This document shows positions 1,100 through 36,163 of a stretch of DNA of 36,707 bases, piece after piece. The notes below the pieces were generated by a model that saw only the letters and a program-made list of their open reading frames with translations, was not told the DNA's origin and made no database searches. Each line of letters begins with the position of its first letter. Within the stretch, counting starts at the first letter, position 1. The stretch covers positions 1 through 36,707 of IMG/VR virus record IMGVR_UViG_3300020171_000080. One strand, given 5' to 3'. Made by a program: the position numbers and the translations under genes. Source of the DNA: a virus.

Positions 1100-1717
1100 T
1101 TAGGGCATCATTGTAACAGTTTTTACATATCCCTTATCTCCAACAGTTACCACAAGTTCTTTATCCTTACTCTTTATTAACTTATTTAATTCAGGTAAAA
1201 TATTATCAGAGTACGGAAAGTCAATATCTTCCAGTGGTACACCCATTTCATGTAAAAGCTCTTCCATACTCCTACTTCCCGATCCAGTTAGCATTATCTT
1301 GCCCTCATACTCTGGAGAGTTATCCCGCTTGAAGCAATACCAGTAACTTCGGGCAATCTCAAACCCCGCATAGTCCTTATCCTGTACTTTGAAGATAATC
1401 CAAAATTCCAGGTGAGGTGGGTTGCCGAAATTATCTACCTTCTTCTCATAGTAGATTGGGGGTTCATCTTTCTTTCCGCCAAAGTGGTCAAACTTACAGC
1501 GATATGCACCTTTAGGCGGGCGGGTTGAACGAATCTTGTTGCCCTCCGCATTTAATCCAACGAAATACTTACCATCTACAACCTTTGTGCCTTCATAGAT
1601 GTCTTCGGGCAGAATGTTAAAAACTTGGTTATCTTCGTAGTGAATTTTGATTTTATCGGGAGTAACAGTTACTTTCGCCATCCCATCAATTCCTTTTTCG
1701 ACTAATCTTCGAGCCAT
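1100..1717 (-). CDS. Hypothetical protein of the replication block
   Basis: A 205-residue protein with a good AGGAGG site before the ATG at 1717. It is mixed beta-rich, with aromatic and charged residues, including PPKGAYRCKFDHFGGKKDEPP and YWYCFKRD segments. It lies directly before the primase and downstream of the helicase and methyltransferase genes. A single-stranded-DNA-binding or other replication-accessory role would fit the location, but no motif proves it. It contains a dispersed palindrome at 1661, encoding VTVT at residues 16-19. The second Met (residue 13) lies just before this and could be an alternative start, but it has no good ribosome site. Confidence 0.65.
   Translation of the reverse strand: MARRLVEKGIDGMAKVTVTPDKIKIHYEDNQVFNILPEDIYEGTKVVDGKYFVGLNAEGNKIRSTRPPKGAYRCKFDHFGGKKDEPPIYYEKKVDNFGNPPHLEFWIIFKVQDKDYAGFEIARSYWYCFKRDNSPEYEGKIMLTGSGSRSMEELLHEMGVPLEDIDFPYSDNILPELNKLIKSKDKELVVTVGDKGYVKTVTMMP
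1661..1673. repeat. Dispersed palindrome AGTAACNGTTACT, copy 2 (perfect)
   Basis: Perfect copy with centre A, near the 5' end of the gene ending at 1100. In that gene it reads Lys-Val-Thr-Val-Thr-Pro. Confidence 0.9.
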
Positions 1718-2589: not shown

Positions 2590-2595
2590 CTTTTA

Positions 2596-2624
2596 ATTAT
2601 ACCACAATTTTGATTTGCTGTCAA
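2596..2624 (-). promoter_or_regulatory. Sigma-70-type promoter for endonuclease gene
   Basis: On the minus strand TTGACA (2624-2619), 17 bases, then TATAAT (2601-2596), with TGTGG directly before the -10 (an extended -10 element) and TAA after it. The predicted start is about 2589. Confidence 0.85.
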
Positions 2625-3614: not shown

Positions 3615-5183
3615 TTATGCCTCCTTTATAATCTGATTTAGAATTATCTCTTCAATACTTGCACCACCAACTATACTTCCTATTATACCACCCTTTTCCT
3701 GTAATAGCAAGTGTATCTTCCAATCAATTGTGTTGTTTGCAACCAACTTATAGGAGTTTACAGGATTGGTTTGTCCTATCCTATGTAGTCTGCCTTCCGC
3801 TTGCTCCATCTTCGCCATGTTCCATTCCGTTTCCACAAAAAGGATTGTATCTGCTTTCCAAAGGTCTATACCCTCACCCCCCGCTTGTGAAATCACTAAC
3901 ACTCGTGGTAGTGTCTTTTCCTGAAATCGTCTGACTGTATCGGCTCGTTTAGTATTGCTGTCATCCCCCACAATCGTATCACAACCCCACTTACACAATG
4001 CTAACTTAATCTCATTGACAACTTCTCGATGATGGCAATAAATTACCAACTTACGACTATCGGAATCAGTTAGGAAATCCTCTGCAAACTCAATGGCATG
4101 TTTGACTTTACCTTTTCCCACTAATTGCCGCAAGTAGTTCAACTTGGACAGCGCATTCGGAGTAACGGTTACTTTCCCCTGTTCCTGCAACCATTTCCGC
4201 AAATCCCTAACTGCTCGATTATATTCCGCCATCTCAATATCTACGGGCATAACTGTTCGAGTCAGTTCAGGCAAGTCTTTCAATACATCCTGCTTCAATC
4301 GGCGGATCATAATGGGTTTCAATATCTCCCGCAATTCAGGAATATTGGTTGCACCATCCACTGTCCAGAATGTTTTGTACCCCATCTTTACCTTTGTTGC
4401 ACCGGCGTAGCGATTCGCAAATGCCCAGTAATTTGCCCATTTATAGGGATTAAGCGTATTGAGGATATTCCATAATTCAATCGGACGGTTCAGGAAAGGT
4501 GTACCTGATAACATCAGTCGTGCTTTGGTATGTACATTCTTGACTGCTTTCCCTCGTTTTGTAGAGCGATTAGAAATGTAGTGAACTTCATCTAATATCA
4601 TTAAATCAAACCTGAAATTATCTATCTTATTTACAATGTTAGAAAGTAGGTCATAGGACACAATAAATATATCATTCTCTTTATCTATGTCATCCTTACC
4701 TGTCTTGATAACAACGGCATCTTTACCCAACCATTTCTTGATTTCATCCTGCCACTTATAAATCACAGATGCAGGAGATACAATCAATATCTTTGTAGTA
4801 TTAGGGGATTCCTTGATTGCCCATAGTGCTTCGATAGTTTTGCCCAGCCCGCACTCTGACGCATTGATACAGTTGAATCCGTTATTATGAATAAAGTCTA
4901 CCGCTTCTCCCTGATAGGGATACAGCAAATGGCGATCTTGCTTGACAACTGGATTGAGATTAAAGCGGGCGAGTTTAAGGATATCACCAGAGATAGTGAA
5001 GTTATGTTCGTTGCCAAAGGATACAGCTATCTTCGCATACATCGGCGCGGCGGGTAAGTGCCAATAAGTATTATCCCTATCCCATACCCTGCCATAAAGT
5101 TCCTTAATCCGTTGTGTCATTCCAACCGAATAAGGGGTACGGATAACTACCCGATTATTTTCAAGAGTGATTGTTCGTTCCAT
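3615..5183 (-). CDS. SNF2-family DEAD/DEAH-like helicase (SMARCAL1-like)
   Basis: A 522-residue superfamily 2 ATPase. In order: an N-terminal HARP-like segment (residues 10-60, VRIRTPYSV to HLPAAP region), Q-motif LYPYQGEAV (87-95), Walker A SECGLGKT (109-116), DEVH box (198-201), SGTPF (226-230), YCHHREVV (382-389) and motif VI QAEGRLHRIGQ (461-471). Proteins of this type translocate on DNA and in phages probably remodel forks or help replication and recombination. The gene is translationally coupled to the methyltransferase (TAATG at 5183). A dispersed palindrome at 4161 encodes VTVT (338-341) in a linker before the second RecA-like domain, where it is unlikely to disturb the motifs. Confidence 0.9.
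   Translation of the reverse strand: MERTITLENNRVVIRTPYSVGMTQRIKELYGRVWDRDNTYWHLPAAPMYAKIAVSFGNEHNFTISGDILKLARFNLNPVVKQDRHLLYPYQGEAVDFIHNNGFNCINASECGLGKTIEALWAIKESPNTTKILIVSPASVIYKWQDEIKKWLGKDAVVIKTGKDDIDKENDIFIVSYDLLSNIVNKIDNFRFDLMILDEVHYISNRSTKRGKAVKNVHTKARLMLSGTPFLNRPIELWNILNTLNPYKWANYWAFANRYAGATKVKMGYKTFWTVDGATNIPELREILKPIMIRRLKQDVLKDLPELTRTVMPVDIEMAEYNRAVRDLRKWLQEQGKVTVTPNALSKLNYLRQLVGKGKVKHAIEFAEDFLTDSDSRKLVIYCHHREVVNEIKLALCKWGCDTIVGDDSNTKRADTVRRFQEKTLPRVLVISQAGGEGIDLWKADTILFVETEWNMAKMEQAEGRLHRIGQTNPVNSYKLVANNTIDWKIHLLLQEKGGIIGSIVGGASIEEIILNQIIKEA
4161..4173. repeat. Dispersed palindrome AGTAACNGTTACT, copy 3 (perfect)
   Basis: Perfect copy with centre G inside the helicase gene. It reads Lys-Val-Thr-Val-Thr-Pro, the same peptide context as copy 2. 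Confidence 0.9.
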
Positions 5184-6621: not shown

Positions 6622-6649
6622 ATTCTACCACTTTATTCTATTTTGTCAA
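6622..6649 (-). promoter_or_regulatory. Promoter for methyltransferase-helicase operon
   Basis: Minus strand TTGACA (6649-6644), 16 bases ending in GTGG, then TAGAAT (6627-6622). It lies partly inside the 3' end of the HNH gene. It would drive 6528 and onward. Confidence 0.7.
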
Positions 6650-7222
6650 GTATAAATAACGATTTCCTTTTCGGGCATTACAAGAATTGCATAATCCTTG
6701 TATGTTGCTTTTGGTTAAACCCCCTCCTTTAGACAAAGGAATTATATGATCTCGTTGTAGGGGTTTCTCTTCTCCACATATAGCACACTTATAATTTTGC
6801 CTCTCTTTTATTTCCTCCCATTCTACTGCAGTTAGATTACAGGGTAAATTCTTTTCAAGGGCTCTGCGTTTGCTATGCATTCGTGCGGTAAGTGCTTTCC
6901 CTTTATGTGTTTGTCTCCATTTGAATGCATATGTTTTATATTTAGAAGTTTGTCGTAATTCTTTCATAAGTAATTTATAATCATATGTTTGTCTATATTC
7001 CCGCATATATGCCCTACCTTTGCGAGAATTTCTCCATTTATTTTTATATTCCCTTTGCTGCGGTGTTTGGGCATAAATTGCCTTTCGTGCTTTACTGTTT
7101 GACAGTTGATTATATTCTTTGAAACATGCTTTACACCAAGGTCTATGTTTATTTATGCGATACACATAAAAATCACCTACTGATTTTATCTCTCCACACT
7201 TGCTACATCTTTTAGTTTCCAT
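6638..7222 (-). CDS. HNH endonuclease with N-terminal zinc finger
   Basis: A 194-residue protein from the METKRCSKCG start at 7222. That ATG is preceded by a leader end and ribosome region nearly identical to that of the endonuclease VII-like gene, so I prefer it to the upstream in-frame ATG. N-terminal C6-x2-C9 and C30-x2-C33 form a zinc finger. The basic middle carries repeated Tyr/Arg/Lys. The C-terminal HNH core is CAICGEEKPLQRDHIIPLS, then a Gly-rich turn and GLCNSCNARKGN. It is a close paralogue of the HNH protein at 22269-22808. It probably cuts or nicks double-stranded DNA and behaves as a free-standing homing endonuclease. Confidence 0.85.
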   Translation of the reverse strand: METKRCSKCGEIKSVGDFYVYRINKHRPWCKACFKEYNQLSNSKARKAIYAQTPQQREYKNKWRNSRKGRAYMREYRQTYDYKLLMKELRQTSKYKTYAFKWRQTHKGKALTARMHSKRRALEKNLPCNLTAVEWEEIKERQNYKCAICGEEKPLQRDHIIPLSKGGGLTKSNIQGLCNSCNARKGNRYLYLTK

Positions 7223-7238
7223 CCCTATATCCCGTAAC

Positions 7239-7330
7239 AAAAAGCCGCCCTCTACCCGAATAAGTGTCTGCTTAAGGACACGAGGTAAAAAGCGGCTTTT
7301 TATCCCTTATTCTTATCGTGTCCTTAAGCA
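7239..7330 (-). promoter_or_regulatory. Structured mRNA leader of HNH gene, same crossing architecture
   Basis: Along the minus strand the order is again C-B-A-C'-B'-A'. C (7330-7316) pairs perfectly with C' (7283-7269) over 15 bp. B (7312-7306) pairs with B' (7264-7258) over 7 bp. A (7301-7292) pairs with A' (7248-7239) over 10 bp, and A' ends in a U-run. C begins at the predicted transcription start, and A' ends 16 bases before the ATG. The arms share no obvious sequence with the leader at 2490-2589, yet the topology and the 3' flank TTGTTAYRGGRAYAGGGATG are conserved. Confidence 0.75.
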
Positions 7331-7335
7331 TATTA

Positions 7336-7364
7336 ATTATACCACTTAATCCCACTTCTGTCAA
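7336..7364 (-). promoter_or_regulatory. Promoter for HNH gene
   Basis: Minus strand TTGACA (7364-7359), 17 bases ending AAGTGG, TATAAT (7341-7336), then TAA. Its -35 lies 35 bases from the -35 of the rightward promoter at 7400, so the two form a divergent pair. Confidence 0.85.
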
Positions 7365-9302: not shown

Positions 9303-10049
9303 TTATTTCTCCTTCTTTAATTCATCTGCCGAAATTTCATAAATGATTTTGGCTTTCTTGTCTGAATGCAATCGCCAAGTCGTACCATCAAAAGACGACA
9401 CAATTCCACTCTCCCATAATTTATTGTTTGAACTAAAATCAAATTTGTATTTAATATCAACAAATGTGCTGATATAAGTCCACACGGAAGCCCTCACGGA
9501 AGTCCACACGGAAGTCCACACGGAATCCCCCACGGAAGTCCCCACGGAAGTCCACACGGAATCCCCCACGGAATCCCCCACGGAATCCCCCACGGAAGTC
9601 CCCACGGAAGTCCACACGGAATCCCCCACGGAATCCCCCACGGAATCCCTCACGGAATCCCTCACGGAATCCCTCACGGAATTCCAATCTTTTAATAGCT
9701 CAATTTGTTCTTCTGTTGGCTTTTTAACTGCTTTTAGTTCGAATGGATTGACAATCGGCTTAATGATTAATGGTTCTACAATAGTTTTAAAATCAACTTC
9801 TCTTACCCACGTTTCGGCTTGAATAGAATCATTGATTTCACCATGGATATTATCTATTTCAAACTCATCTGTTAATGGATTATATTCATAGCAATTTGGG
9901 GATTTAACAAGCTTGAAATAGCTGATAATGTGGTCGTGCGAATCCGCATCATTATCTTTGAGATGTTTCTTTCGGTAATTCCAATCAAAGTAAAATCGTT
10001 CATTTGGATGTCCGTCTGGTTCGGTTACAAAACTAAAGAATTGACACAT
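9303..10049 (-). CDS. Phage protein with MCQFFSF head and tandem SVxx repeats
   Basis: A 248-residue protein. Residues 1-120 form a head beginning MCQFFSFVTEPDG with DADSHDHII, a pattern I have seen in phage proteins of unknown function. Residues 124-191 consist of 17 consecutive four-residue units of the form SV(R/G/W)(D/T/A). Residues 192-248 are a short globular tail. The units are encoded by 12-base repeats whose changes are restricted to the last two codons. The alternative frame through the repeats is also open, as expected of a tandem repeat, and I do not treat it as a gene. The ribosome site is AAAGGAG. Function unknown; the repeat region may form a beta-solenoid-like or elongated surface. 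Confidence 0.75.
   Translation of the reverse strand: MCQFFSFVTEPDGHPNERFYFDWNYRKKHLKDNDADSHDHIISYFKLVKSPNCYEYNPLTDEFEIDNIHGEINDSIQAETWVREVDFKTIVEPLIIKPIVNPFELKAVKKPTEEQIELLKDWNSVRDSVRDSVRDSVGDSVGDSVWTSVGTSVGDSVGDSVGDSVWTSVGTSVGDSVWTSVWTSVRASVWTYISTFVDIKYKFDFSSNNKLWESGIVSSFDGTTWRLHSDKKAKIIYEISADELKKEK
9477..9680 (-). repeat. 17 tandem copies of a 12-base coding repeat
   Basis: Units have the plus-strand form CACGGAAKYCCY. The order of unit types itself repeats in blocks (Gly-Asp, Gly-Asp, Trp-Thr, Gly-Thr), which shows recent slippage or unequal exchange. The copy number is probably variable between relatives. Confidence 0.9.
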
Positions 10050-10190: not shown

Positions 10191-10574
10191 TTACTCCTTT
10201 CTCAATTGATCTAACCATTTCCTGATTGATAAATTCATTTCTGCCTGGCTTTTACGCCGACTGATAAGCAATACAGGGATATTATTATCTACACAATAGG
10301 AGAGTAACCGCTGCTTAACTGCCTTTGTTTTTGCACTCATCCCCCAGCCATTGATATAATAGTTTTCCTTGAATTCAATTGCAGCGTGGTCAAACTTGTA
10401 AGTACCAGCTCCAAATTTTATTAGTGCGGGTACTGTCCAATTTTCTCTATAATCATCCGCAGGTTTCAACCCGCATATTTTGGTATAGATTAAATCCAAT
10501 TCATCCAATGCCGCCCATAGCTTTACATATTCAGCGGATGGATTAATGATTCGTGTTTCGGGTGTGTATCTCAT
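10191..10574 (-). CDS. Possible small PD-(D/E)xK-type nuclease
   Basis: A 127-residue protein with FGAGTYKFDHAAIEFKENYYINGWG, then VKQRLLSYCVDNNIPVLLISR. An Asp followed by an acid-x-Lys (AIEFKEN), a conserved helix and a buried beta strand (IPVLLI) loosely fits the small PD-(D/E)xK nuclease layout seen in phage resolvases and VRR-NUC proteins. This is only an inference from the pattern. Its start overlaps the clamp-like gene as ATGA. A degenerate copy of the dispersed palindrome (10303-10315, two mismatches) reads Gln-Arg-Leu-Leu here. Confidence 0.6.
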   Translation of the reverse strand: MRYTPETRIINPSAEYVKLWAALDELDLIYTKICGLKPADDYRENWTVPALIKFGAGTYKFDHAAIEFKENYYINGWGMSAKTKAVKQRLLSYCVDNNIPVLLISRRKSQAEMNLSIRKWLDQLRKE

Positions 10575-11949: not shown

Positions 11950-11962
11950 AGTAACGGTTACT
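11950..11962. repeat. Dispersed palindrome AGTAACNGTTACT, copy 4 (perfect, intergenic)
   Basis: Perfect copy with centre G in the gap between the gene ending at 11985 and the promoter at 11886-11915. It is a plausible operator position upstream of that promoter. Confidence 0.9.
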
Positions 11963-15794: not shown

Positions 15795-15807
15795 AGTAAC
15801 TGTTACT
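15795..15807. repeat. Dispersed palindrome AGTAACNGTTACT, copy 5 (perfect, leader)
   Basis: Perfect copy with centre T, placed between the folded leader and the AAGGAG ribosome site at 15809. A bound protein here could block transcription. Confidence 0.9.
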
Positions 15808-15821
15808 TAAGGAGATAATGT

Positions 15822-15872: not shown

Positions 15873-16447
15873 TGTTTTCAGAAGTTAAAATAGAAGCTGG
15901 TTGTCATAAATGCAGAAAGGAGGGCAAGTCAACAGATTCGGTTTATACAGACATAGATGCCCTTTGTGATTACCACCGTAAATTGGAGTATGATAAGAAA
16001 AAATGTTCAATATGTGGAAAGAATATTCCTGCCAATATAATAGGATGGTATGTACCTAATTTTGGGAGTTATATTGACATAAATTACTGGTGTCCAGATT
16101 GTATTAAGAAAGGTAATGATGCAATTACTAAAGCCAAAGAATTATTGCCAAAGTTGAAGGAAGATAGGGATAAATTGTGGGATGAACAGCACAAACTATT
16201 CGTATCCGATAAAATGGAATCCCCTATTTTTGAAGATGAAGATGGAGAATTCGCTCTTCTTGGCGAGGATTATGTTACCTTACGGCAGTTTCAGCAGGAC
16301 ATTAAGTATTATAAGAGACATAGAAATGAAATTATAGCTAATCGGGAACAACGCGATAAACTATATGCAAAGTATAATGAAATGAAAATCAAAGTAGATG
16401 AAGCTGAAAGGGTGAGTAATTATTATATGTTAAAAGCAAACAGGTAA
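15872..16447 (+). CDS. Zinc-binding protein with coiled-coil tail
   Basis: A 191-residue protein from ATG 15872, chosen because GGGAGG precedes it and TGATG couples it to the upstream stub; an in-frame ATG at 15818 would add 18 residues that translate the stub in another frame. Residues 9-90 hold GCHKCRKEG, LCDYH, KCSICGK and WCPDC, enough for two zinc sites. The second half is charged and helical (KAKELLPKLKEDRDKLWDEQ and EREQRDKLYAKYNEMKIK-type heptads). It may be a nucleic-acid or protein adaptor; I recognise no named family. Confidence 0.7.
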   Translation: MFSEVKIEAGCHKCRKEGKSTDSVYTDIDALCDYHRKLEYDKKKCSICGKNIPANIIGWYVPNFGSYIDINYWCPDCIKKGNDAITKAKELLPKLKEDRDKLWDEQHKLFVSDKMESPIFEDEDGEFALLGEDYVTLRQFQQDIKYYKRHRNEIIANREQRDKLYAKYNEMKIKVDEAERVSNYYMLKANR

Positions 16448-16457
16448 AGGTAGTATA

Positions 16458-16898
16458 ATGAGAGTTATAGACACAGAACGAATGGAGTGTTCTTGTGGAT
16501 GTGGTCAAATAATTAATAGCAAAGATAAATGGGGAAGGGCTAAATCTTTTGTTAGTGGACATAATGGAAGGAAATATACCAATCCAACACAGTATAAACG
16601 GGAGTGGAATTATAGAAATAGAGAATCGAGATATATTGCTAAGATAAAGAGAGGACATGAATTAAAAGTAAAGTCAATTGGATTATTAGGAAAAAAGTGT
16701 ACTGTTTGTGGCTTGAAATATAATGGGAAAAATGCGTGTGTGTTTCAGTTTCACCATAAAGATTCAAAGGAGAAAGAGTTTCCTATAAATACACGGACAC
16801 TTATAAATTATTCTTGGCAGCGAATAATAAATGAGATTACAAAATGTGATTTGCTTTGTGCTAATTGCCATTTTATATTACATAATGAGGAATATTAA
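16458..16898 (+). CDS. HNH endonuclease
   Basis: A 146-residue protein. The N-terminus has CSCGCG and SFVSGHNGRK, a zinc-knuckle segment often seen before HNH cores in phage proteins. The core is KCTVCGLKYNGKN, FQFHHKDSKEKEF with the HH pair, an IINEITKC helix, then LLCANCHFILHNEEY. The two CxxC pairs and HH/NCH residues support a zinc-stabilised nuclease. AAAGG precedes the ATG. Its stop overlaps the RtcB start (TAATG), so they are translated together. Confidence 0.8.
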   Translation: MRVIDTERMECSCGCGQIINSKDKWGRAKSFVSGHNGRKYTNPTQYKREWNYRNRESRYIAKIKRGHELKVKSIGLLGKKCTVCGLKYNGKNACVFQFHHKDSKEKEFPINTRTLINYSWQRIINEITKCDLLCANCHFILHNEEY

Positions 16899-18052
16899 TG
16901 TATAAATTCAAAGATGAATCTATGGTTGTACCTATGTATGTATGGTCAGCTAAAGATAGCATTGAAGAAAATGCGATAACCCAAATGAAGAATGTTAGTT
17001 CTTTACAATTTGCATATCATCATACTGCTTTAATGCCAGACGGACATTCTGGTTATGGTGCACCTATTGGTTGTGTCTTAGCTACAAAAGGAATTATAGT
17101 TCCATTTTTGGTCGGCGTGGATATTGGATGCGGGATGATAGCTGTAAAGACTACTCTTCGAGAAATAGATACGGATACCATTAAATCAATTATGGGCAAA
17201 ACCCGCGAAGTTATTCCTGTTGGATTTAATCATCAAACAAGTGAGCAGACTTGGGAGGGATTTTCGGAATCACCAAATGTGTCTATTATTCAACGAGAAT
17301 TAGTATCATCTAAGAAACAACTTGGTACACTTGGTGGAGGTAATCATTTTATTGAAATCCAGAAAGGTGATGATGGTTATATCTGGTTAATGATTCATTC
17401 TGGATCACGTAACTTTGGATTAAAGACTGCCAGTGAGTATCATAAGAAAGCACAGGCATTATGTGAACGATGGAATTCAAATATTCCAGATAAGGAATTA
17501 TCCTTTCTGCCTATAGAGACAGATGAAGGTCATCAATACTTTGATGCAATGAATTATTGTTTGCGGTTTGCACAAGCTAATCGTGCATTAATGATGAGTA
17601 GATTATGCGAAATTGTAAACAAAGCTACAGGTGCAGATAAGTTAGATGAAATCAATATCCATCATAACTACGCGGTATTTGAAAATCATTATGGCAAGGA
17701 TGTTCTGATTCATCGTAAAGGTGCAACTAAAGCGAATATTGGTTTACGTGGAATAATTCCTGGTTCGATGGGGACATCCAGTTATATTGTTGAAGGTCTT
17801 GGAAATGAGGAAAGTTTTCAATCCTGTTCACACGGGGCGGGGAGGCGAATGGGAAGAGGCGAGGCAACGAGAACATTAAATCTTGAGGAGGAACAGAAGA
17901 AAATGGCAGGTATTGTTCATGGTTTGCGAACAAGTAGAGAATTGGATGAAGCTCCTGGAAGTTATAAACCAATAGATGAGGTAATGAAAAATCAAGAAGA
18001 TTTGACCCATATATTAGTAAAACTTACTCCTCTTGGTAATATAAAAGGATAA
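16898..18052 (+). CDS. rtcB: RtcB RNA ligase
   Basis: A 384-residue protein with all signature segments: GVDIGCGM (D75, C78), LGGGNHF (N149, H150), IHSGSR (H167), HHNYA (H256), HRKGA and SCSHGAGR, whose His (H312) takes the guanylate. RtcB joins RNA with 2',3'-cyclic phosphate to RNA with 5'-OH, using GTP and Mn2+. In phages it repairs tRNAs or other RNAs cut by host defence ribonucleases. The length is slightly below the bacterial norm of about 400. No archease gene or tRNA gene is visible nearby. Confidence 0.93.
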   Translation: MYKFKDESMVVPMYVWSAKDSIEENAITQMKNVSSLQFAYHHTALMPDGHSGYGAPIGCVLATKGIIVPFLVGVDIGCGMIAVKTTLREIDTDTIKSIMGKTREVIPVGFNHQTSEQTWEGFSESPNVSIIQRELVSSKKQLGTLGGGNHFIEIQKGDDGYIWLMIHSGSRNFGLKTASEYHKKAQALCERWNSNIPDKELSFLPIETDEGHQYFDAMNYCLRFAQANRALMMSRLCEIVNKATGADKLDEINIHHNYAVFENHYGKDVLIHRKGATKANIGLRGIIPGSMGTSSYIVEGLGNEESFQSCSHGAGRRMGRGEATRTLNLEEEQKKMAGIVHGLRTSRELDEAPGSYKPIDEVMKNQEDLTHILVKLTPLGNIKG

Positions 18053-18243: not shown

Positions 18244-18468
18244 TTGCCAAAAGTTTTATTCTGTGATAAATGTAATAAACAACCCGCCGAAGAAGATTAT
18301 GATGGTGCTGTTCTATGTGAGCAACACATGGCGGAAAAACTCTTACCTTATATGCAAGCAGACTTGGATGAGTGTACAGAAAAACTTAGGGTATTAGAAA
18401 TGAATTGGCATAAACTAAAGAATGATTTAGCTGCTTTGCTACAAGTTGCAAGAGGTGATAATGGCTGA
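18244..18468 (+). CDS. Small zinc-knuckle protein, TTG start
   Basis: A 74-residue protein whose TTG at 18244 follows a strong AAGGAGG site. LFCDKCNKQPAEEDYDGAVLCEQH makes one Cys3His-type zinc site, followed by a helical tail (ADLDECTEKLRVLEMNWHKL). It overlaps the next start by eight bases. Function unknown. Confidence 0.65.
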   Translation: MPKVLFCDKCNKQPAEEDYDGAVLCEQHMAEKLLPYMQADLDECTEKLRVLEMNWHKLKNDLAALLQVARGDNG

Positions 18469-18877
18469 AGAATCGCGACTCTACTGTGTTAATCGAACTG
18501 TATGTGATATACTGGATGATATGCGTAAGGCATATGAAGTCCGCAATTTCTCCTACCTACTTGGATTGATGGAGGAGTTACAACACCGTGCGAACAGAAT
18601 GGAGGCGGGTTTACAGGATTGCAAAGACCTGATGGAGTTGGCGCAAGAGCGTAGCAAGTTGAAGGCGGAAGTGTTTTCATTGCGGGAAGAAGCCGCCAAG
18701 CAACGGTTACTTAAATTTTCACCAAACGGTGAAAATATAGATAATAGTGAAAATGTAGTAAAGACCAATGATGAGTGGATAGCGGAGAATTTGGATAAAT
18801 GGGAAAAGAAAGGAATAGAGGAAGACAATCTATGGGATGATGATTGGGAAAGTGTGATGAAGGATAATCCGCAATGA
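18461..18877 (+). CDS. Coiled-coil protein, 138 residues
   Basis: The start at 18461 (MAEESRLYCVNRTVCDIL) is set by AAGAGG directly before it. Residues 20-90 are a long charged helix (LMEELQHRANRMEAGLQDCKDLMELAQ and on). The tail is very acidic (EEDNLWDDDWESVMKD). A one-mismatch copy of the dispersed palindrome lies at 18699 and reads Gln-Arg-Leu-Leu. Family unknown. Confidence 0.65.
   Translation: MAEESRLYCVNRTVCDILDDMRKAYEVRNFSYLLGLMEELQHRANRMEAGLQDCKDLMELAQERSKLKAEVFSLREEAAKQRLLKFSPNGENIDNSENVVKTNDEWIAENLDKWEKKGIEEDNLWDDDWESVMKDNPQ
18699..18711. repeat. Dispersed palindrome, copy 6 (one mismatch, AGCAACGGTTACT)
   Basis: Here the reading frame would meet TAA if the site were perfect; the single T-to-C change makes CAA (Gln). 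It is the only one of the ten listed copies not read in the Val-Thr frame. Confidence 0.8.
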
Positions 18878-22105: not shown

Positions 22106-22118
22106 AGTAACGGTTACT
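22106..22118. repeat. Dispersed palindrome AGTAACNGTTACT, copy 7 (perfect, intergenic)
   Basis: Perfect copy with centre G, here extended to TAAGTAAC-G-GTTACTTA (8+1+8). It lies about 110 bases upstream of the promoter at 22229. Confidence 0.9.
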
Positions 22119-22228: not shown

Positions 22229-22257
22229 TTGACAAAATAGCGATTGTGTGGTATAAT
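22229..22257 (+). promoter_or_regulatory. Promoter of HNH-terminase-portal operon
   Basis: TTGACA (22229-22234), 17 bases ending TGTGTGG, TATAAT (22252-22257), then TAA. It is almost the same as the promoter at 36106. Confidence 0.9.
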
Positions 22258-22268
22258 TAACGGTTGAG

Positions 22269-22808
22269 ATGGGTATAAAAACTTGTTATCGTTGCAAGAA
22301 AGTAAAATCATTATCTGAATTTCATAAACAAACAACTGCAAGTGATGGATTATACTCTTGGTGTAAGGAATGTAGGCGAGAGTATGATAAACAACCAGAA
22401 AGAGTTGCGTGTAGAAAAGCAAATGAGAAAACCCCACAATGTATTGCGTATAGAAGAGCACAAAGCAAACGCCCAGATAAGATAGAATGGTTACGAGAAT
22501 ACAATAGGTCTGAACGTGGATTAGCTTATCACCGCGCATGGGAGAAGACCCTCAAAGGAAAAGCCAAAATTGCTCGTAAGAATAGTAAACGTAGAGATTG
22601 GACAGAGAATACAGTTTGTGATTTGACCGCGCAAGAGTGGGAAGAGATTAAGGTAAGGCAGAATTATAAGTGTGCGATTTGTGGAGAAGTTAAACCGCTA
22701 CATCGCGACCATGTATTTCCATTAAGTTTAGGTGGAAATCTTACTAAAGCGAATGTTCAAGGTTTATGTATATCTTGTAATGGTCGTAAGGGCAATAAAA
22801 TAATCTAA
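22269..22808 (+). CDS. HNH endonuclease beside terminase
   Basis: A 179-residue protein: zinc finger C6-x2-C9 and C32-x2-C35 (TCYRC, WCKEC), basic Arg/Lys-rich middle, and core CAICGEVKPLHRDHVFPLS with GLCISCNGRKGN. It is a paralogue of the HNH protein ending at 6638. The ATG is 11 bases after the -10 with no clear ribosome site. In HK97-like phages an HNH protein next to terminase helps DNA packaging; here the gene's close similarity to an early-region homing-type HNH makes both packaging and homing roles possible. Confidence 0.85.
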   Translation: MGIKTCYRCKKVKSLSEFHKQTTASDGLYSWCKECRREYDKQPERVACRKANEKTPQCIAYRRAQSKRPDKIEWLREYNRSERGLAYHRAWEKTLKGKAKIARKNSKRRDWTENTVCDLTAQEWEEIKVRQNYKCAICGEVKPLHRDHVFPLSLGGNLTKANVQGLCISCNGRKGNKII

Positions 22809-27482: not shown

Positions 27483-27722
27483 GTGGTAGTGTATAAATTT
27501 GTAGAGTACAATGATAGAACTGATAAGATGAAGGCACTGATTGACAAAGAATTACACAAAGACGGAGAATGGAAAATCGCCTTTGTAACTTCCCGTAATA
27601 TTAATACATTGGTTATCTTTGAGCAGATTAGTGATAGTAATCCCAAACCAAATCTTATAAGGGAAGTAACGGTTACTTCGGAAAAACCTATCAAGAAAGC
27701 ACCTATTACTGTAGCAGAATAA
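27483..27722 (+). CDS. Hypothetical 79-residue protein, GTG start
   Basis: GTG at 27483 follows AGGAGG. The protein begins MVVYKFVEYNDRTDKMKALI and ends with REVTVTSEKPIKKAP, which contains the dispersed palindrome at 27665. The sequence around this peptide resembles TEVTVTSKKPTGYP in the giant protein. Family unknown. Confidence 0.65.
   Translation: MVVYKFVEYNDRTDKMKALIDKELHKDGEWKIAFVTSRNINTLVIFEQISDSNPKPNLIREVTVTSEKPIKKAPITVAE
27665..27677. repeat. Dispersed palindrome AGTAACNGTTACT, copy 8 (perfect)
   Basis: Perfect copy with centre G; extended to GAAGTAACGGTTACTTC (17 bases). It reads Val-Thr-Val-Thr. Confidence 0.9.
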
Positions 27723-27723
27723 G

Positions 27724-30700
27724 ATGTCACCTTTACCATCTTGGTTAGTACCAACAACTCCCAAAACACCTGCAACTCCTACTGTACCCACACCTAAATC
27801 TACAAAGGCGGTTGGAGTTGCTAAATTTTGGACTACTTCTGACTTTAAGAATTTTGTAAAGAGTTCGGGAACGCAGACAGTTGAAACCCCAATAGGTACG
27901 GCATTTGGTTGGGGTGCGGGTGCACCTACTGGGGGGATTCCTACTGACCCAATTAATTTGTGGTTACAGAAATTTCAGAAGTCTCCAACACAGAAGAAGA
28001 CAGTAGAAGAAATCATTGCAGAGGCTAATGCTATTCTGCCTAAAGATGAATCGGGAAGATTTCCTCGTCTTAGTCAGGACTTGAGATATGGGGATACTTT
28101 ATTTCTGGATGATTCAACTGCAGAGATAACAGGTAATCCCAAAGACCCTAAGACAACTATCCCACTATTTTGGACGCCTGATGTATATGATCCTACTAAA
28201 TTAGTTTGGGGAACTACTGACACGGGCAAACCTGTTATATTAGATGAGAAGACAGCCCAGAATCTTAATACCTACTATTCTACATTTATCGATATAGACC
28301 CCAATCTTGTTAAGCAAAGAGAAATTCTAACTCAACGTGAGTTAGATGGATATATTCCAAAAACTATGTTGGATACTTATTATGCATCTCGTGGAGTAAC
28401 ATATCCTGGAACACGTTGGTATTTTTTCCCCGAAGATTTAATAGCATTAAAGAATATAGAATCATTGCCAAAAGAACAACAAGAGACGGCAATGATGGAT
28501 ATATTTAAACGAGCCAAACCATTTACTGCGGAAGAAGAACCGAGTTTGTGGTTGAAGATTGGCGAAACTGGGGATGTAATGAAGCAGGCGGCATCTGCTG
28601 GTGCACAACGAGGTCGCCTTATTTCCAAATTTGTGGCGGATTTTATTCATGCTTTAGCATATACGCTTGGAGTTAAGTTAGGAAGTGGTAATAAACGCGT
28701 AGGAGTGCAAGGATTACTCGATATTCAATCAGGTAAGCATAAGGAAGATTCTGGATATGGTAGCGGCTTTACCAATATTAATCAAAATGAATTAAGTAAG
28801 TCTACCTATAAGTGGACTAAATTACTTAAAGACCCCGCACAAATGGATAAAGTTTTCAATTTTAGTAATCTTTCTCCCGATAAGCAGAAGGTTATTCAAG
28901 ATAATATAGATAACTGGAATAAGATAATTATATCAGGAACGGAACAAGAGAAACAAGAACTTGCGGATAAATTCTATGTTATGGAGAATTTGGAGAACTT
29001 CACTAATGTGCGGATGGATGTGGAAGCCGTATTTGGTTCTCTATTAGATTTAGTAAACCCCGAAGCTGCAAAGGATTTTCTTGCAGAACGTGGGGTTTCT
29101 TCTTATAGAAATACGATTGCTTCTATTGATGCGGAGGTATCTGGTGGAAAGTATAAACGATGGGAAGATACAGGTTTTCAATTACTTACTCAACCCGAAA
29201 AGATTATAGAAAATTATCAGATGGTCGCAGAGGAAGCCGCACCTGTTCATACAGAAGCATATCGAATATTCAAGTTAGGTGGATTGGATAATCAGAAACT
29301 TGCAATAGATATGCTGGTAAAATCATATGGCAAGGAATATGCAGCACTTCCAACTGACCCATCTGCATCTTGGGAATGGATTGGTGATCCAGAACGTAGA
29401 GATTACTTCTTTACCATTGCTGCTCAATTAGAGTTGCAAAGTCATAGTCCTTTGAATCGTAATGAGATGCGACAGTTGATTAATACTATTGCCGATCCCG
29501 GCTCTGAACTTATTGGCGGATATGCTATTGATTTGAATAATTTTCTCAATCTTCCTATAGGTGGCATTGCTACAGAGATGGTAGGAGGAACAGGCTCTAA
29601 TGCATATAAGGCACTTGGATTTGGTAAGATTCCCAATTTTCCCAATGCGCAGATAGATAGTCTTGCAGTAAGTCTTACTTGGAATAAAGTTATCAAACCT
29701 CTTTTCAAAGCAGGGGGAGAGGCATTTACTAATTCCGCTTTGGGTAAATTTGCATTCGGTGCATTACATCTGGATACTATTTTCAAGAAGAGTGCAAAAT
29801 CTGTTGCTCGTGCACTTGCACAAGATGCTGAAAATATATTTAAATTGGTATCTTCTGCGGATAAAATGATATTAGATTCAGACGCACTTGTAGATATTTC
29901 ATCTCGTGTAACTACTTATGGCATGAGAATTTCTGCGCTAAAAGCGGGGGGATATACAATTGATGATATATTAGATATTATCAAGAAAGAAATGGTTAAT
30001 TCTGGAGATGCTACCCTTGCTACAGATAAGATAGTTAGGTCTATTTCTTCAATGGTAGACACAATTGACCCGCTGAAAAGTAACTGGGGTAAGATTATTG
30101 CCAAGAATTTTGATGATGCTAAAAGTTCTGCATTACTTACTGAGATTGTAAGGCAGAAGACGAATCCGGATGTACAGAGGATGGTACGAGATTTAGAAGA
30201 GGTCGCAAAATCAGGTACTATTGCAGACAAGAAAGCTCTTGATGATTTATATAGAGAGATTGTAGAGCGCGCCAAAGTAGTTGCAGATACTAAAATAACC
30301 CCCACCGTAATTTCCCGTATGTTTGGGAATGTATTTGATGGTGCTTATCTTGAAGCAAACAAAGCATGGGAAGGCACATCAATTCTAAAGGGTACATTTT
30401 CTGCATGGTTAGGATCGGTACTACCTGTTTCCAAATTCAAGAAGATTGACGGTGTAGTTACCGAAGTAACGGAAAGTCTGTTACATGGGACTGTTCAGGG
30501 TTGGAATGATGTTGTATATAAAACATATCGCAAGATGATGGATAATCTTGTGAATAAGTGGCTGTACATGACGGGGCGTTTTCCATCTTATCAACAAATG
30601 GAAAATGCTTCATCTTATGCACTTATGCACGGCACAGGAACAGTTGCAGATAGAGTTGGAGATATACTTTCATTTGGTAAAAATGTAGATACTCCCTCTA

Positions 30701-33700
30701 TGTCGTTAGCTCAATCATTAGCAGAAATACGGTATGGATCATACGGACTTAAAGGTTCAGATATTGGTGGAAATGTAATTAGTGAAGTGGAACGTGAGAA
30801 GGAATTGATGGAGAAAGCCTTTGGTTGGATTGTTTCTCCTATATCCGTTGGCAGTAATTTCAAGGATTCTTTTCAAGCGGCTAAACTACAAATTATTCAA
30901 GATATGATGGATGCAGGGTTGAAGATTGACCCTAAAACCATGACGGCTGACGAACTTCATCATGCACAAACTATTATTAATCAGAAGATGCCGTGGGCAA
31001 TAAAGACGGCATGGATTGATTCCATTAAAGACCAAACCAGTTTTATGGAAACATCATACCGAGCGTTGATGGCAGGTAAGATTATAGATGAGAATATGAA
31101 CCTGCTGGATAGTGCCGCCATGTCCGCTAATCTTAGTAATCTAAAGAATAGTCTAATAGCGGGAGGTTTATCTCAATCTAATGTGGATGCTATTATGGAA
31201 AGTGCAGAGTTGGCTTGGAAACGTTCTTATGGTAATCCTGATATATTTGAGAGATTAATGGATGTACAAGGAATGTTGAAAGGTACTTCTTTGAATTCCG
31301 CATGGATTCCAGATGAATTACTAAAGAATGCCACTCCCGAAGATATGATTGCATATCGTAAGATTGAAGCCGAATGGGATGGATACATTAGAACTCTTAA
31401 GGATAAAGGGGAAATTCCCACCTTAGAGAATGTACGGTCTTTCTTTAAAGAGGTTTCTAATCGGGTTACGGGTCTTGCAGAAGAAGCACATAATCCTGAT
31501 GGATTATATGCAACATCTATATTGGGAGTAAAGGAAGGCAAACCAGCCTTATCTGCATCTCTATCTAATCTACTTAATGAATATAAATCGGCAGGTGGGG
31601 ATATTTCCCAATTAAAGGGTATTCCTACTAAAGATGCTACTAAGATTATTAAAGATAATAAGATACTTCTCAAAGGTTTGGATATAAAGACGGCAGGTAG
31701 AAGTAATGGGGATATTCTTGCAGATTTGGCGGAAGCAACTGGAGGTATTCAGAAAGTTGCAAGTATAGCTATTACCCCGTGGTCAAAGTTAGTCCGTGAT
31801 TTATCTGAGAATTTTGACGAGTATCCAGATGAACTCATATCTGGAAATAAGTGGGCACTTCGCAATAAAGTTGCTACTATGATTCGGGATGATGGAACAA
31901 AGATAAAGGCAAAGGATTTCGCTAATCTATCTAATGATAATCAGGTAAAGTATATTCAAGCGATTGCTAAGTCGGAAGGGGATGAACTTTCAGATATACT
32001 TGCGCAAAAGACTGTATTAGATGTAAACAATAAGTTAGGTATAACTGATTATGTAAAGAATCAGGAATATGTTGAGTTTGAGAATAGTCAGATTCGTTCT
32101 CTATCTAAGAGCAAAGCTGTATCTAAGGAGCATGCAGGCAGGGTAAATGAGCTATTCAGCAACGTTGAGGGAGTGGATAATGATATGGCACAGTTCCGTG
32201 CTACTACATTTCCAGGTACGGCACGGGAGAGAAGCAATACGGTAGTTGATCGTAAGTTATACAAGACACAGTATGAACCAGCATGGAATTTAGACGCAGT
32301 ACATCAAACGGAATATTTGCGCCGTAAAGGTGATTATCTTGAAACGGTACGAAATGCTATTGAAAATGGAACATCTATTCCTAATGTTACTCGTTCACAA
32401 ATGTGGGAGTGGTACGGATTTACTAACCCCAAAGTAGATAATGTTGGTAATATTATTGGGATTGATTTAATAGATAAAGATTCGGGATTAGCTACCAACT
32501 CTTTTGGGCAAGTAAAGGTAGGTAAGTTTGGGGATGAAATGGTGGATAGTCCTACTCTATCTTTATTCAAACAGCGGTCACGAATGTCAAATGCTGTTGA
32601 CCTTGAATATTCAATATTACGTCCATTTCCTGATATAGTAGACGAAGCTACTCCATTTGCTAAAACTGCTACCGAGGTAACTGTTACTTCCAAGAAACCA
32701 ACAGGATACCCAAAAGGAACTTCTATAAAGATTACCCCTCTTGCGGATGAGACAATGGAACAAGCGTTGGCACGAGAGCGCAAAGCATTTGTTACTGCTA
32801 TCATTGAGCACGAAGAGTGGGGGACACAAACACCCAAATATTATGTACAGAAGATACTTACTCCCACATTGAATAAAGTGGGTAAGAAACTTGATGATTT
32901 ATCACCGGAAGAGATTGTAGATGAAATTAGAAAGTTAGCTAATATACGGGCAACAGAAGGATTACGTCATGTTCCCCAATCTCTAACGGATTTGGCAGAT
33001 AAGATTGCATACGATATTGAGCAATTTAATTCAATGGCAGTTACTGGAAGAAACATACCTACTCCTATTGTAATGGCGAGATTGCCCGATGATTTGAGGG
33101 CGTGGTCAATGTATCGCATGAACAATCTTGCAGAACTTGAATCTTTTCAAGCTTCCTTAAAGACTTGGGAGAAGTTTATTGGAGATAAGTTAGGGGATGA
33201 TACTCTGATGAAGATTCTAAAAATAGACCCAACAGATATGGGCAAGGTAAATCTTGCGGTAGGGGAAGCGGCACAGGGTATGGCAAAGACGAGAGATGCA
33301 GTCTTATATGGGGGAGAAATTGCGGGGCAAACAGTCGAGGGTGCAGTTCCAAAGATGAACGTGATTATGAAGAACTACACCACTTCTGCAACCAACTTTG
33401 ATGAGTTTATGAAAACCATGTTCCCCTTCTGGATGTTCCCCCGCTCCGCCGCGCTTGCATGGACTCGCTTGATTGCAGATAATCCTACTATTCTTACTTT
33501 GTATAATAAATATATTCGCTATAGTTATGCTCATGTAACGTCAAATGGAATGGTGGATAGTAAGGGGCAAGCTCTTAAGTCTTATGTGGGTAAAGTTCCT
33601 ATTATGAAGATCAACGGGCGTAACATTTGGATAGAGGCTTTTCCTGGATTACCTATTCGCTATATCTATAATTCTATTAGTGCAAAGCAACCCCAACAAG

Positions 33701-36075
33701 ATGAACAGGCGGATGTTCCCATTGTACAACAAGTATTTGGATTTATTAGTAGAGAGGGAGAAGCTCGTGGTTTGCGAATGGGGTTGTTGGCAGAGATAAT
33801 CACTTCTGCATTATCGGGAACACCTGATAGATATACAGGGCAAGGTGCGGTAGCAACTGCTGCTTCTTACGGCATAGAAACAGCATTACCAATTCCAAAA
33901 GAGTTGATTCCCCCTTTCCTTACTAATTTTATTGGAAACATGCTGAAGAAAGTAGGTATGCCTTCAATTGGAGATGCAGTTGACCCCCAAGTAACTTGGT
34001 TTGATTCTGTAGTTGAGGGTAAATTACTTACCCAATTACTTGCAGATATTCAATCCCGTCCTGGGGATACCAAATATGCGTTTGAAAGAGCGGCAGAAGT
34101 AAGAGATATATTAATGAATCCTAAACGGGAAGGTATTCCTGAATGGGATAAGTACGCGATGGAAACCAAGAATGATGATTTCTACAATAAGAATCTTGTT
34201 GGTTTTGTATCGGGATTTTACCCTCGCTATATGTCCGATGATGATATGAGTTTATATGCACTTCGTAATAAACTAAACTTTTTACGGGATGCTGCAAACA
34301 ATTTACTCGGAACATCATTATTTGCAATAATGCCAAACGAAGCAAGACGGCAACAATTATATAACAATGAACGATATGATACTCCTGAAGGATATGTATG
34401 GGGGTTGCGTCAAAACACTCAATTTGTCAAAGACGAGTACACAGATGAAGTAATCACCGATCCAGGAGATAGACGTAATCGTATGGCGCAGTTATACTCA
34501 GAGGATATTCAGACCGAAGAGTATTATGCAGAAATGGAACGAGTTGCAGAAGTTAGGGACGCCAAGTTGAAGGCATTACCTATTGGAGATGCAGATGCTA
34601 TGTTCCAAGTATATTCGGAATGGGGAGATACCCGCACACAGTTAGAGAAATTCTATCCGATGGCACAACGTGCATGGAGTAAAGGATATAAACCTGTGGA
34701 ATTGGTTTATAATCATTACTCAAGTTTGTGGTGGCAGTTGATTCGAGAAACCAAACCTAAGTATGATATTGAACATGGCATGAAGTATGACGAATATCAA
34801 ATCAATATGGATGAGTGGATTGATAAGACACTACCTATTTTGGGAAAGTCGCTCGCTACTACCTTTATGTTAAATATTGAAGGTGGGGGTGAAGATTCTG
34901 TAAAGATTACTAATCAATTACTTGCAGAAACCAATCGTAAGGGATGGGAAGCATATCAAGTTAATTCAGACGACATATTTGAAGCATTATTACGTGGATG
35001 GGAAACTTTATACCTTGATCCATTCTATGTAGCGATGGAGGGCAAGGAAAGTTATGCGTACCAGTTAGCAGAACAGCAATGGTTGGTTGTGAATAAACAA
35101 CCAACCCCGTCACAACTATATGATTTCATTATAAAGACCTATGGTAAAGATAAATGGACTAAAGATGATGTCTATAATGCTATGACCGTACCGACGGGGG
35201 AACCAAGAATGACTTTGGATGTCCCACAAAAGCAACAAACAGGCAAAGATGAGCGGGAAAAGCAGTTCAACGACATTAAAGAGTGGTATTCATGGGCAAA
35301 TGTAGCTACAAAATTATCTCAAGAGAAGAAACCCATTACATTTTCCGCCGTTTTCAAGAAAAATGGTGGGGATGCCAATGCTTTGAATACACTTTGGGGA
35401 GTTGTAAGTCCTTACTCCTTCTCAAATGTAGCAGAATTTGACAAATTATACGAAATTGCGCTCAAAACTAAAGAAGATATGCAGTTGCAACCCCCGGACG
35501 CACAGGGATTGGGAATATTAGCTAAAGCACAATCAGAAAATGATAAATTGGGGCAACTTTTGACCCGGCAATTTGGTGCTGCTTGGAAAGATACCTTTAC
35601 TTTATATGAACAGCAAACCAAAGCAGATAAGAAAGCATGGCAAAAGCAGAATCCAGAGAAATTTGCACAGTATGTAGAGTATACAAAGATAAAGAAACAA
35701 TTTGCACTTGAATATCCAGATTGGGCAGAATACTACGGGGGAAAATATGTAAGTAGTGTTGGTGCTTCTTCTGAGGGTTCAACACCATTAGTTCGAGCAA
35801 ATTATGGGGGAGGCGCTACTTCCATTCCCAAAGCAACAGTTACTTCCATGAAATTGTTTGGTGCACCTCTGCGAACTGGTACTAATTTAGCAAGTTTAGG
35901 TTTTAGTGGCGATTTCAGCAAGGTTGCGGGTGAATGGTTACTAAATGAAATATCCATAGCGGCTGGAGGTACTCGCAAATTGAGTAAGGCTGCACTTACC
36001 CGGTTGAGAAATATGCAGGGAATCTATCCGAGTCTATCGCGGGAAATTGGTGCGATTATTGCTAAATATTCATAG
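27724..36075 (+). CDS. Giant protein of 2783 residues, probable virion or ejected protein
   Basis: One uninterrupted frame of 8.35 kb between the structural candidate and the scaffold-like gene. It starts one base after the preceding stop. The first 60 residues are Pro/Thr-rich, and the rest is mostly helical with few obvious repeats. A hydrophobic FPFWMFPRSAALAWTRL segment near residue 1900 may contact membrane. I see no T7-like RNA polymerase signatures and no convincing lysozyme motif. Its size and position suggest a virion core or ejected protein, comparable in size to N4-type virion RNA polymerase but without its motifs. Two dispersed palindromes fall within it (residues 1652-1655 VTVT and 2704-2707 ATVT). 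Confidence 0.7.
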   Translation: MSPLPSWLVPTTPKTPATPTVPTPKSTKAVGVAKFWTTSDFKNFVKSSGTQTVETPIGTAFGWGAGAPTGGIPTDPINLWLQKFQKSPTQKKTVEEIIAEANAILPKDESGRFPRLSQDLRYGDTLFLDDSTAEITGNPKDPKTTIPLFWTPDVYDPTKLVWGTTDTGKPVILDEKTAQNLNTYYSTFIDIDPNLVKQREILTQRELDGYIPKTMLDTYYASRGVTYPGTRWYFFPEDLIALKNIESLPKEQQETAMMDIFKRAKPFTAEEEPSLWLKIGETGDVMKQAASAGAQRGRLISKFVADFIHALAYTLGVKLGSGNKRVGVQGLLDIQSGKHKEDSGYGSGFTNINQNELSKSTYKWTKLLKDPAQMDKVFNFSNLSPDKQKVIQDNIDNWNKIIISGTEQEKQELADKFYVMENLENFTNVRMDVEAVFGSLLDLVNPEAAKDFLAERGVSSYRNTIASIDAEVSGGKYKRWEDTGFQLLTQPEKIIENYQMVAEEAAPVHTEAYRIFKLGGLDNQKLAIDMLVKSYGKEYAALPTDPSASWEWIGDPERRDYFFTIAAQLELQSHSPLNRNEMRQLINTIADPGSELIGGYAIDLNNFLNLPIGGIATEMVGGTGSNAYKALGFGKIPNFPNAQIDSLAVSLTWNKVIKPLFKAGGEAFTNSALGKFAFGALHLDTIFKKSAKSVARALAQDAENIFKLVSSADKMILDSDALVDISSRVTTYGMRISALKAGGYTIDDILDIIKKEMVNSGDATLATDKIVRSISSMVDTIDPLKSNWGKIIAKNFDDAKSSALLTEIVRQKTNPDVQRMVRDLEEVAKSGTIADKKALDDLYREIVERAKVVADTKITPTVISRMFGNVFDGAYLEANKAWEGTSILKGTFSAWLGSVLPVSKFKKIDGVVTEVTESLLHGTVQGWNDVVYKTYRKMMDNLVNKWLYMTGRFPSYQQMENASSYALMHGTGTVADRVGDILSFGKNVDTPSMSLAQSLAEIRYGSYGLKGSDIGGNVISEVEREKELMEKAFGWIVSPISVGSNFKDSFQAAKLQIIQDMMDAGLKIDPKTMTADELHHAQTIINQKMPWAIKTAWIDSIKDQTSFMETSYRALMAGKIIDENMNLLDSAAMSANLSNLKNSLIAGGLSQSNVDAIMESAELAWKRSYGNPDIFERLMDVQGMLKGTSLNSAWIPDELLKNATPEDMIAYRKIEAEWDGYIRTLKDKGEIPTLENVRSFFKEVSNRVTGLAEEAHNPDGLYATSILGVKEGKPALSASLSNLLNEYKSAGGDISQLKGIPTKDATKIIKDNKILLKGLDIKTAGRSNGDILADLAEATGGIQKVASIAITPWSKLVRDLSENFDEYPDELISGNKWALRNKVATMIRDDGTKIKAKDFANLSNDNQVKYIQAIAKSEGDELSDILAQKTVLDVNNKLGITDYVKNQEYVEFENSQIRSLSKSKAVSKEHAGRVNELFSNVEGVDNDMAQFRATTFPGTARERSNTVVDRKLYKTQYEPAWNLDAVHQTEYLRRKGDYLETVRNAIENGTSIPNVTRSQMWEWYGFTNPKVDNVGNIIGIDLIDKDSGLATNSFGQVKVGKFGDEMVDSPTLSLFKQRSRMSNAVDLEYSILRPFPDIVDEATPFAKTATEVTVTSKKPTGYPKGTSIKITPLADETMEQALARERKAFVTAIIEHEEWGTQTPKYYVQKILTPTLNKVGKKLDDLSPEEIVDEIRKLANIRATEGLRHVPQSLTDLADKIAYDIEQFNSMAVTGRNIPTPIVMARLPDDLRAWSMYRMNNLAELESFQASLKTWEKFIGDKLGDDTLMKILKIDPTDMGKVNLAVGEAAQGMAKTRDAVLYGGEIAGQTVEGAVPKMNVIMKNYTTSATNFDEFMKTMFPFWMFPRSAALAWTRLIADNPTILTLYNKYIRYSYAHVTSNGMVDSKGQALKSYVGKVPIMKINGRNIWIEAFPGLPIRYIYNSISAKQPQQDEQADVPIVQQVFGFISREGEARGLRMGLLAEIITSALSGTPDRYTGQGAVATAASYGIETALPIPKELIPPFLTNFIGNMLKKVGMPSIGDAVDPQVTWFDSVVEGKLLTQLLADIQSRPGDTKYAFERAAEVRDILMNPKREGIPEWDKYAMETKNDDFYNKNLVGFVSGFYPRYMSDDDMSLYALRNKLNFLRDAANNLLGTSLFAIMPNEARRQQLYNNERYDTPEGYVWGLRQNTQFVKDEYTDEVITDPGDRRNRMAQLYSEDIQTEEYYAEMERVAEVRDAKLKALPIGDADAMFQVYSEWGDTRTQLEKFYPMAQRAWSKGYKPVELVYNHYSSLWWQLIRETKPKYDIEHGMKYDEYQINMDEWIDKTLPILGKSLATTFMLNIEGGGEDSVKITNQLLAETNRKGWEAYQVNSDDIFEALLRGWETLYLDPFYVAMEGKESYAYQLAEQQWLVVNKQPTPSQLYDFIIKTYGKDKWTKDDVYNAMTVPTGEPRMTLDVPQKQQTGKDEREKQFNDIKEWYSWANVATKLSQEKKPITFSAVFKKNGGDANALNTLWGVVSPYSFSNVAEFDKLYEIALKTKEDMQLQPPDAQGLGILAKAQSENDKLGQLLTRQFGAAWKDTFTLYEQQTKADKKAWQKQNPEKFAQYVEYTKIKKQFALEYPDWAEYYGGKYVSSVGASSEGSTPLVRANYGGGATSIPKATVTSMKLFGAPLRTGTNLASLGFSGDFSKVAGEWLLNEISIAAGGTRKLSKAALTRLRNMQGIYPSLSREIGAIIAKYS
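32676..32688. repeat. Dispersed palindrome, copy 9 (one mismatch)
   Basis: GGTAACTGTTACT; the 11-base core is perfect. It reads Val-Thr-Val-Thr in TEVTVTSKKP of the giant protein. Confidence 0.8.
35832..35844. repeat. Dispersed palindrome, copy 10 (one mismatch)
   Basis: AGCAACAGTTACT, read as Ala-Thr-Val-Thr in KATVTSMK near the end of the giant protein. Confidence 0.75.
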
Positions 36076-36105: not shown

Positions 36106-36134
36106 TTGACAAATAAGCAAATGTGTGGTATAAT
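36106..36134 (+). promoter_or_regulatory. Promoter of scaffold-like gene
   Basis: TTGACA (36106-36111), 17 bases ending ATGTGTGG, TATAAT (36129-36134), then TAA. It matches the promoter at 22229 at most positions, so capsid genes have their own strong start. Confidence 0.9.
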
Positions 36135-36163
36135 TAATACTTGGTAAGTGGAGGAAACTTAAT

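Follow-up and report, generated by a model that had tools for sequence, protein, structure and literature searches.

The locus considered here raises the question of whether a short palindrome inside a phage gene is kept for the amino acids it encodes or as a DNA word in its own right and, in the latter case, of what might read that word. The window, meaning the whole stretch of DNA analysed, is a 36.7-kb piece of a tailed-phage genome in IMG/VR; its gene set comprises a primase, a SNF2-type helicase, endonuclease VII/HNH genes, an RtcB-like ligase, a terminase, a portal-like protein and a giant gene of 2783 aa. The terminase has a best identity of ~25% to named phages and shares 40–50% with many IMG/VR contigs. 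Related phage contigs and records are designated by G-numbers, and W denotes the window itself in the lists of motifs.

The palindrome and its copies in the window

Positions 18699–18711 read AGCAACGGTTACT, within the longer AAGCAACGGTTACTT, and the ORF at 18446–18877 (+) reads this copy as AAG CAA CGG TTA CTT (KQRLL). Given this reading frame, a perfect AGTAAC would create an in-frame TAA; the single-base departure that avoids the stop codon, pointed out in the first-pass annotation, is present as described there, and its frame is confirmed in this ORF. Regarding the encoded protein, it has no significant match in Pfam or PHROG, and its residues 16–76 share 61% identity over 61 aa with a protein of phage contig G001, so that the ORF is taken as a real gene; the G001 protein is the sole relative found, and it is distant and partial, with an alignment that does not reach the palindrome.

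The window contains ten near-perfect copies of AAGTAACNGTTACTT, none of which has more than one core mismatch; ~0.2–0.3 would be expected (Table 1). Seven cores are perfect and three have one mismatch, with Markov expectations of 0.0 and 0.15, respectively; an alternative count, allowing up to two mismatches of 14, also finds 10 sites, against 0.29 expected. Among the ten, the copy at 18699 alone lies in the AAG NAA CNG TTA CTT frame, where the consensus T would give TAA, while the earlier statement that the remaining coding copies are read as VTVT or ATVT is borne out for 332, 1661, 4161, 27665, 32676 and 35832 (GTA/GCA frame).

Table 1. Palindrome copies and genes considered in the text (window coordinates unless a record is named)
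Feature	Position	Strand	Remarks
Palindrome copy, perfect core	332–344	.	In primase gene 236–1099 (-), VTVT frame
Palindrome copy	1661–1673	.	N-terminus of gene 1100–1717 (-)
Palindrome copy	4161–4173	.	In SNF2-type helicase gene 3615–5183 (-)
Weak copy, two core mismatches	10303–10315	-	KQRLL in ORF 10191–10574 (-)
Palindrome copy	11950–11962	.	Intergenic
Palindrome copy	15795–15807	.	Intergenic, 11 nt ahead of ORF start at 15818
Focal palindrome copy AAGCAACGGTTACTT	18699–18711	+	KQRLL; T to C at the would-be-TAA base
Palindrome copy	22106–22118	.	Intergenic, ~110 nt upstream of strong promoter at 22229
Palindrome copy	27665–27677	.	End of ORF 27483–27722 (+), VTVT frame
Palindrome copy, one mismatch	32676–32688	.	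In giant gene 27724–36075 (+)
Palindrome copy AGCAACAGTTACT	35832–35844	.	In giant gene, ATVT frame; same T to C, no stop at stake
Primase gene	236–1099	-	Window's left end cuts off here
SNF2-type helicase gene	3615–5183	-	
RtcB-like RNA ligase gene	16898–18052		
ORF with focal copy	18446–18877	+	143 aa, no known family
Giant gene	27724–36075	+	2783 aa
Candidate HTH protein gene	G008 17242–17928; G006 16184–16873		Adjoins uvsX

As for the T to C change, its reading as stop avoidance holds to the extent that a departure is forced in the 18699 frame, but the change is not unique to that frame: it recurs at 35832 and in intergenic copies of G006 and G008. Since it occurs with no stop at stake, C is a tolerated letter that is used when needed. 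The weak copy at 10303, AAGCAGCGGTTACTC on the coding strand, had been offered as a second example; frame and KQRLL reading are indeed the same, but sites with two core mismatches number three in the window against 1.2 expected, so that this copy is not distinguishable from chance and may be a chance match or a decayed site.

Selection on the DNA word

One explanation is that the copies arise incidentally from protein sequence (VTVT, QRLL) or codon bias, and VTVT is indeed recurrent in beta-rich proteins. When synonymous codons were shuffled within each gene, however, ~0.25 coding copies were expected against 24 observed in seven records, counting coding copies that are perfect outside position 4; in G015, the figures were 0.12 and 10. 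The motif, abolished by such shuffles, is moreover found in three reading frames as well as in intergenic DNA.

A second line of evidence comes from the stop-forming frame, in which the AAGTAAC lineages have 14 copies. On the coding strand, the critical position of the 5′ half is never T in these 14 (C in 10, A in two, G in two), whereas its mirror in the unconstrained 3′ half is T in 13; at the other palindrome positions, the mean number of mismatches is 0.14, compared with 0.15 in intergenic copies. That T is missing from the 5′ half follows from the definition of an ORF; what is informative is that all the other positions are intact. G015 tolerates A at this place, and A is what each of its eight stop-frame copies carries. 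The palindrome was also considered as a supplier of stop codons, and this idea was rejected: nine called genes end on its TAA, which is not clearly above background.

Orthologous sites provide the third line. The comparison of codons between orthologues that had been proposed for the focal gene was run on other genes, with a favourable outcome: in the giant genes of G006 and G008, whose local identity is ~43%, an orthologous copy (57267 and 40757, respectively) reads AAGCAACGGTTACTT with no letter changed, and KQRLL is kept there with the identical codons CAA CGG TTA CTT, whose joint codon-usage probability is ~0.001, in flanking DNA that is 63% identical. At the start of uvsX, G013 and G005 both keep the palindrome, while its free centre turns Gln into Pro. 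The copy at 1661 has orthologues in G006 (23807) and G008 (9194, degenerate). Finally, the orthologous terminase site reads AAGTAATCGTTACTT in G024 and AAGTTATCGTAACTT in G016; the form common to G024, G020 and G026 is [AG]AGTAATCGTTACTT, and in G016 both halves are altered symmetrically, by two synonymous changes that fit the G016 consensus AAGTTAC.

Taken together, the synonymous shuffles, the asymmetry of the stop-frame copies, the conserved orthologous codons and the symmetric synonymous switch in terminase show that selection protects the DNA word itself, as the first-pass annotation had suggested. The shuffles, the stop-frame asymmetry and the orthologous sites, with their unchanged QRLL codons, refute an origin as a by-product of protein sequence or codon bias, which is hardly tenable.

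A lineage trait with a drifting consensus

Copy number per genome ranges from 6 to 15 in the window phage and its uncultured relatives; for several of the long relatives (51–66 kb) it is 8–14, of either this palindrome or a drifted form. A de novo dyad scan ranked AAGTAAC-N-GTTACTT first or close to first in W, G006, G007 (a genome of 57% GC), G008, G003, G013, G014 and G024. Sister records have drifted dyads, namely AAGAAAC (G010), AAGAAAG (G011/G012), AAGTAAG (G018/G017), GAGWAAG (G015), AAGTTAC (G016) and AAGTTAG (G027), and each changed position is mirrored in the opposite half. A collection-wide pattern scan returned, among the matches listed, mostly single chance copies, and it brought in G006, G002, G008 and G005.

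Regarding their layout, sites fall every ~3–8 kb throughout the genome, within and between genes and regardless of strand. About two thirds of the copies are intragenic, and many copies are found between genes or at gene ends; copies sit on either side of gene boundaries and within late structural genes. In W, G007, G015 and G011, the sites are spaced more regularly than at random (P 0.01–0.02 each), and Fisher's combination of ten P values gives ~1e-4. None of the strong promoters in the part of the window scanned (15108, 15638, 19332 and 22229) is overlapped by a copy. The literature searched contained nothing matching this sequence or dispersed phage palindromes of this kind.

The palindrome can be folded on paper into a stem of six pairs and a loop of three bases, and might then act as an RNA or DNA hairpin, either a terminator or an N4-type hairpin promoter. 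This reading is very improbable: predicted folding is no better than that of shuffles for three of four copies, the best fold at 18699 is another hairpin, and the palindrome has no conserved flank, T-run or orientation. The RNA hairpin was rejected on the first two of these grounds.

The candidate binding protein

A dyad with one central base points to a homodimer on double-stranded DNA, and the word most likely binds one that is predicted to be encoded by the phage. The best candidate appears to be a helix-turn-helix (HTH) protein of ~229 aa adjoining uvsX; it is present beside the uvsX-like gene in all nine near-complete motif-bearing records, and the truncated end of its gene lies on G005, a contig that was retrieved solely through the palindrome. 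The protein is missing from G019, G023 and G001. That the window lacks it is no surprise, since in G008 and G006 its module lies beyond the primase, where the window is cut off. Co-occurrence does not single out this protein, since the whole replication module (clusters 10, 11, 17 and 22) co-occurs with the motif. OmpR-type, HTH_36 and recombinase-like HTH proteins were rejected as binders, being found in only some of the motif-bearing records.

Profile and sequence searches of PDB and Pfam gave no significant match for the candidate; it has no relative among INPHARED phages, and further viral scans returned known members only. AlphaFold models have helices, an HTH and a beta-beta-beta-helix C-terminus, with the N-terminal ~80 residues modelled as helices. 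For the G008 model, the best PDB matches by Foldseek are P1 ParB, Myxococcus xanthus ParB, SopB, VirB and KorB, all weak (best E 0.045), and for the G007 model a ParB match is not clear. The N-terminal ParB/Srx CTPase domain is absent, with no Pfam ParB match in any of the nine members, and the adjoining gene is RecA/UvsX-like, with a sub-threshold match to ParA. The assignment of this protein as the binder is a lead and not proof, and its ParB-like fold is weakly suggested. As for specificity, the presumed recognition helix differs among phages having the same motif; DKYVKMW occurs in that of G010 and G015, the phages that have A at motif position 4 and also encode the protein, and not in the others.

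A host protein might instead bind the sites, which the phage would keep in order to recruit or exploit it. However, the consensus drifts with phage lineage across genomes of 38–65% GC, and the switch at the orthologous site is symmetric; both are easier to explain with a phage-encoded partner, so that a host binder is unlikely.

Proposed role and comparison with known systems

The preferred reading, to which a probability of about 0.6 is given, is that AAGTAACNGTTACTT is the genome-wide double-stranded site of a homodimer encoded by the phage, probably the ~229-aa HTH protein, which would organise or silence the genome as a whole. A sequence-specific homodimer would occupy the word on double-stranded DNA at the sites that the lineage keeps at intervals of ~3–8 kb; where a copy falls in the stop-forming frame, the forced base alone leaves the consensus, usually for C. 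The phage's own HTH protein, encoded beside uvsX, would act as the binder, and the coated sites would serve the whole genome, as dispersed KorB operators or stoperators do, and not as operators of single promoters. This last step, the organising or silencing role, is the weaker part: even spacing, placement at gene boundaries and in late genes, and distance from strong promoters fit a genome-wide role better than control of single operators, and such a role may consist of organisation, recombination, packaging or stoperator-like silencing.

In a bolder version, possible if doubtful, this lineage of uncultured phages of ~50–66 kb would carry a genome-organising code made of evenly placed dyad sites and a phage HTH protein of P1-ParB-like architecture, devoid of the CTPase domain and encoded beside a recombinase; its target would be the whole genome during replication, through compaction, recombination or packaging, rather than promoters, and the specificities of site and protein would shift in step from one lineage to another.

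Three known systems are close. The conserved inverted repeats of phiC31 are palindromic repressor sites at many places in its genome, between genes at promoters; they are dispersed palindromes like those described here, of which ~two thirds are, in contrast, inside genes. The KorB operators (OB) of plasmid RK2 are 13-bp palindromes with one central base, bound by a dimer of the ParB family, with roughly a dozen of them spread along a 60-kb replicon. Size, single centre and multiplicity over the replicon are thus alike. OB silences its target promoters from near or far (PMC11790492), a further likeness to the role proposed for the phage sites. The sequence differs, and the phage sites are mostly away from recognised promoters and often intragenic. 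The phage candidate also differs from KorB in having no N-terminal CTPase domain, and no KorA partner is known.

The third system, the stoperators of Cluster A phages (L5, Bxb1), supports a rival reading in which a phage repressor bound at these sites blocks promoters or elongation, as in L5-like mycobacteriophages or phiC31. The two sets are similar in being many short sites over a phage genome, in their number per genome and in a consensus that drifts between relatives (PMC6550527), and many of the copies described here lie between genes or at gene ends. Stoperators, however, have asymmetric sequences aligned with transcription (PMC6550527), and the protein that binds them is an immunity repressor. 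The phage word forms a dyad in all lineages and takes no particular direction relative to transcription; no copy overlaps the strong promoters of the part scanned, and no integrase or immunity repressor was recognised among the proteins scanned. Stoperators or operators are, on this evidence, rather unlikely. In its presumed working, the system comes closest to dispersed KorB operators or to stoperators, and it is placed under neither: the symmetry of the site rules out a stoperator in the defined sense, and the candidate has no CTPase domain, the defining feature of KorB/ParB.

Dispersed protein-binding sites that constrain coding sequence can seldom be demonstrated from sequence alone; here, three independent lines of proof are available, namely the stop-codon frame, the synonymous shuffles and the symmetric switch at an orthologous site. 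Because its sites vary naturally from phage to phage and a candidate protein can be named, the lineage moreover makes the genome-wide evolution of binding specificity directly testable.

Other features of the window and its relatives

The phage of the window encodes an RtcB-like RNA ligase (Table 1). The giant gene, which reaches 4251 aa in relatives, sits between portal and capsid-region genes and has no Pfam match; its product is perhaps a polyvalent protein injected from the virion. The ORF at 9303–10049 (-), whose protein has no known family, contains ~16 tandem 12-bp units at 9480–9690, which encode a run of DSVG/TSVG-like repeats.

An extended strong promoter of ~32 bp, with the layout TTGACA-17-TATAAT with TG followed by TAATTAA, occurs in four copies in the window (2593–2624, 7333–7364, 22229–22260 and 36106–36137). 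Three of the four precede paralogous endonuclease VII/HNH genes (1933–2472, 6638–7240 and 22269–22808), which look as if they were mobile cassettes bringing their own promoter.

Two relatives carry other recurrent sequences. In G019, GTCAGAANNNTTCTGAC recurs as six near-copies where none is expected, all of them outside called genes of at least 80 aa; these form a possible operator set. G023 (IMGVR_UViG_3300037246_001948) has a different replication module and is without the motif of the window; it carries 17 copies of GAACNNNNGTTC, all intragenic, against 2.2 expected after synonymous shuffling, another genome-wide palindrome, whose sequence resembles the Gram-positive LexA box.
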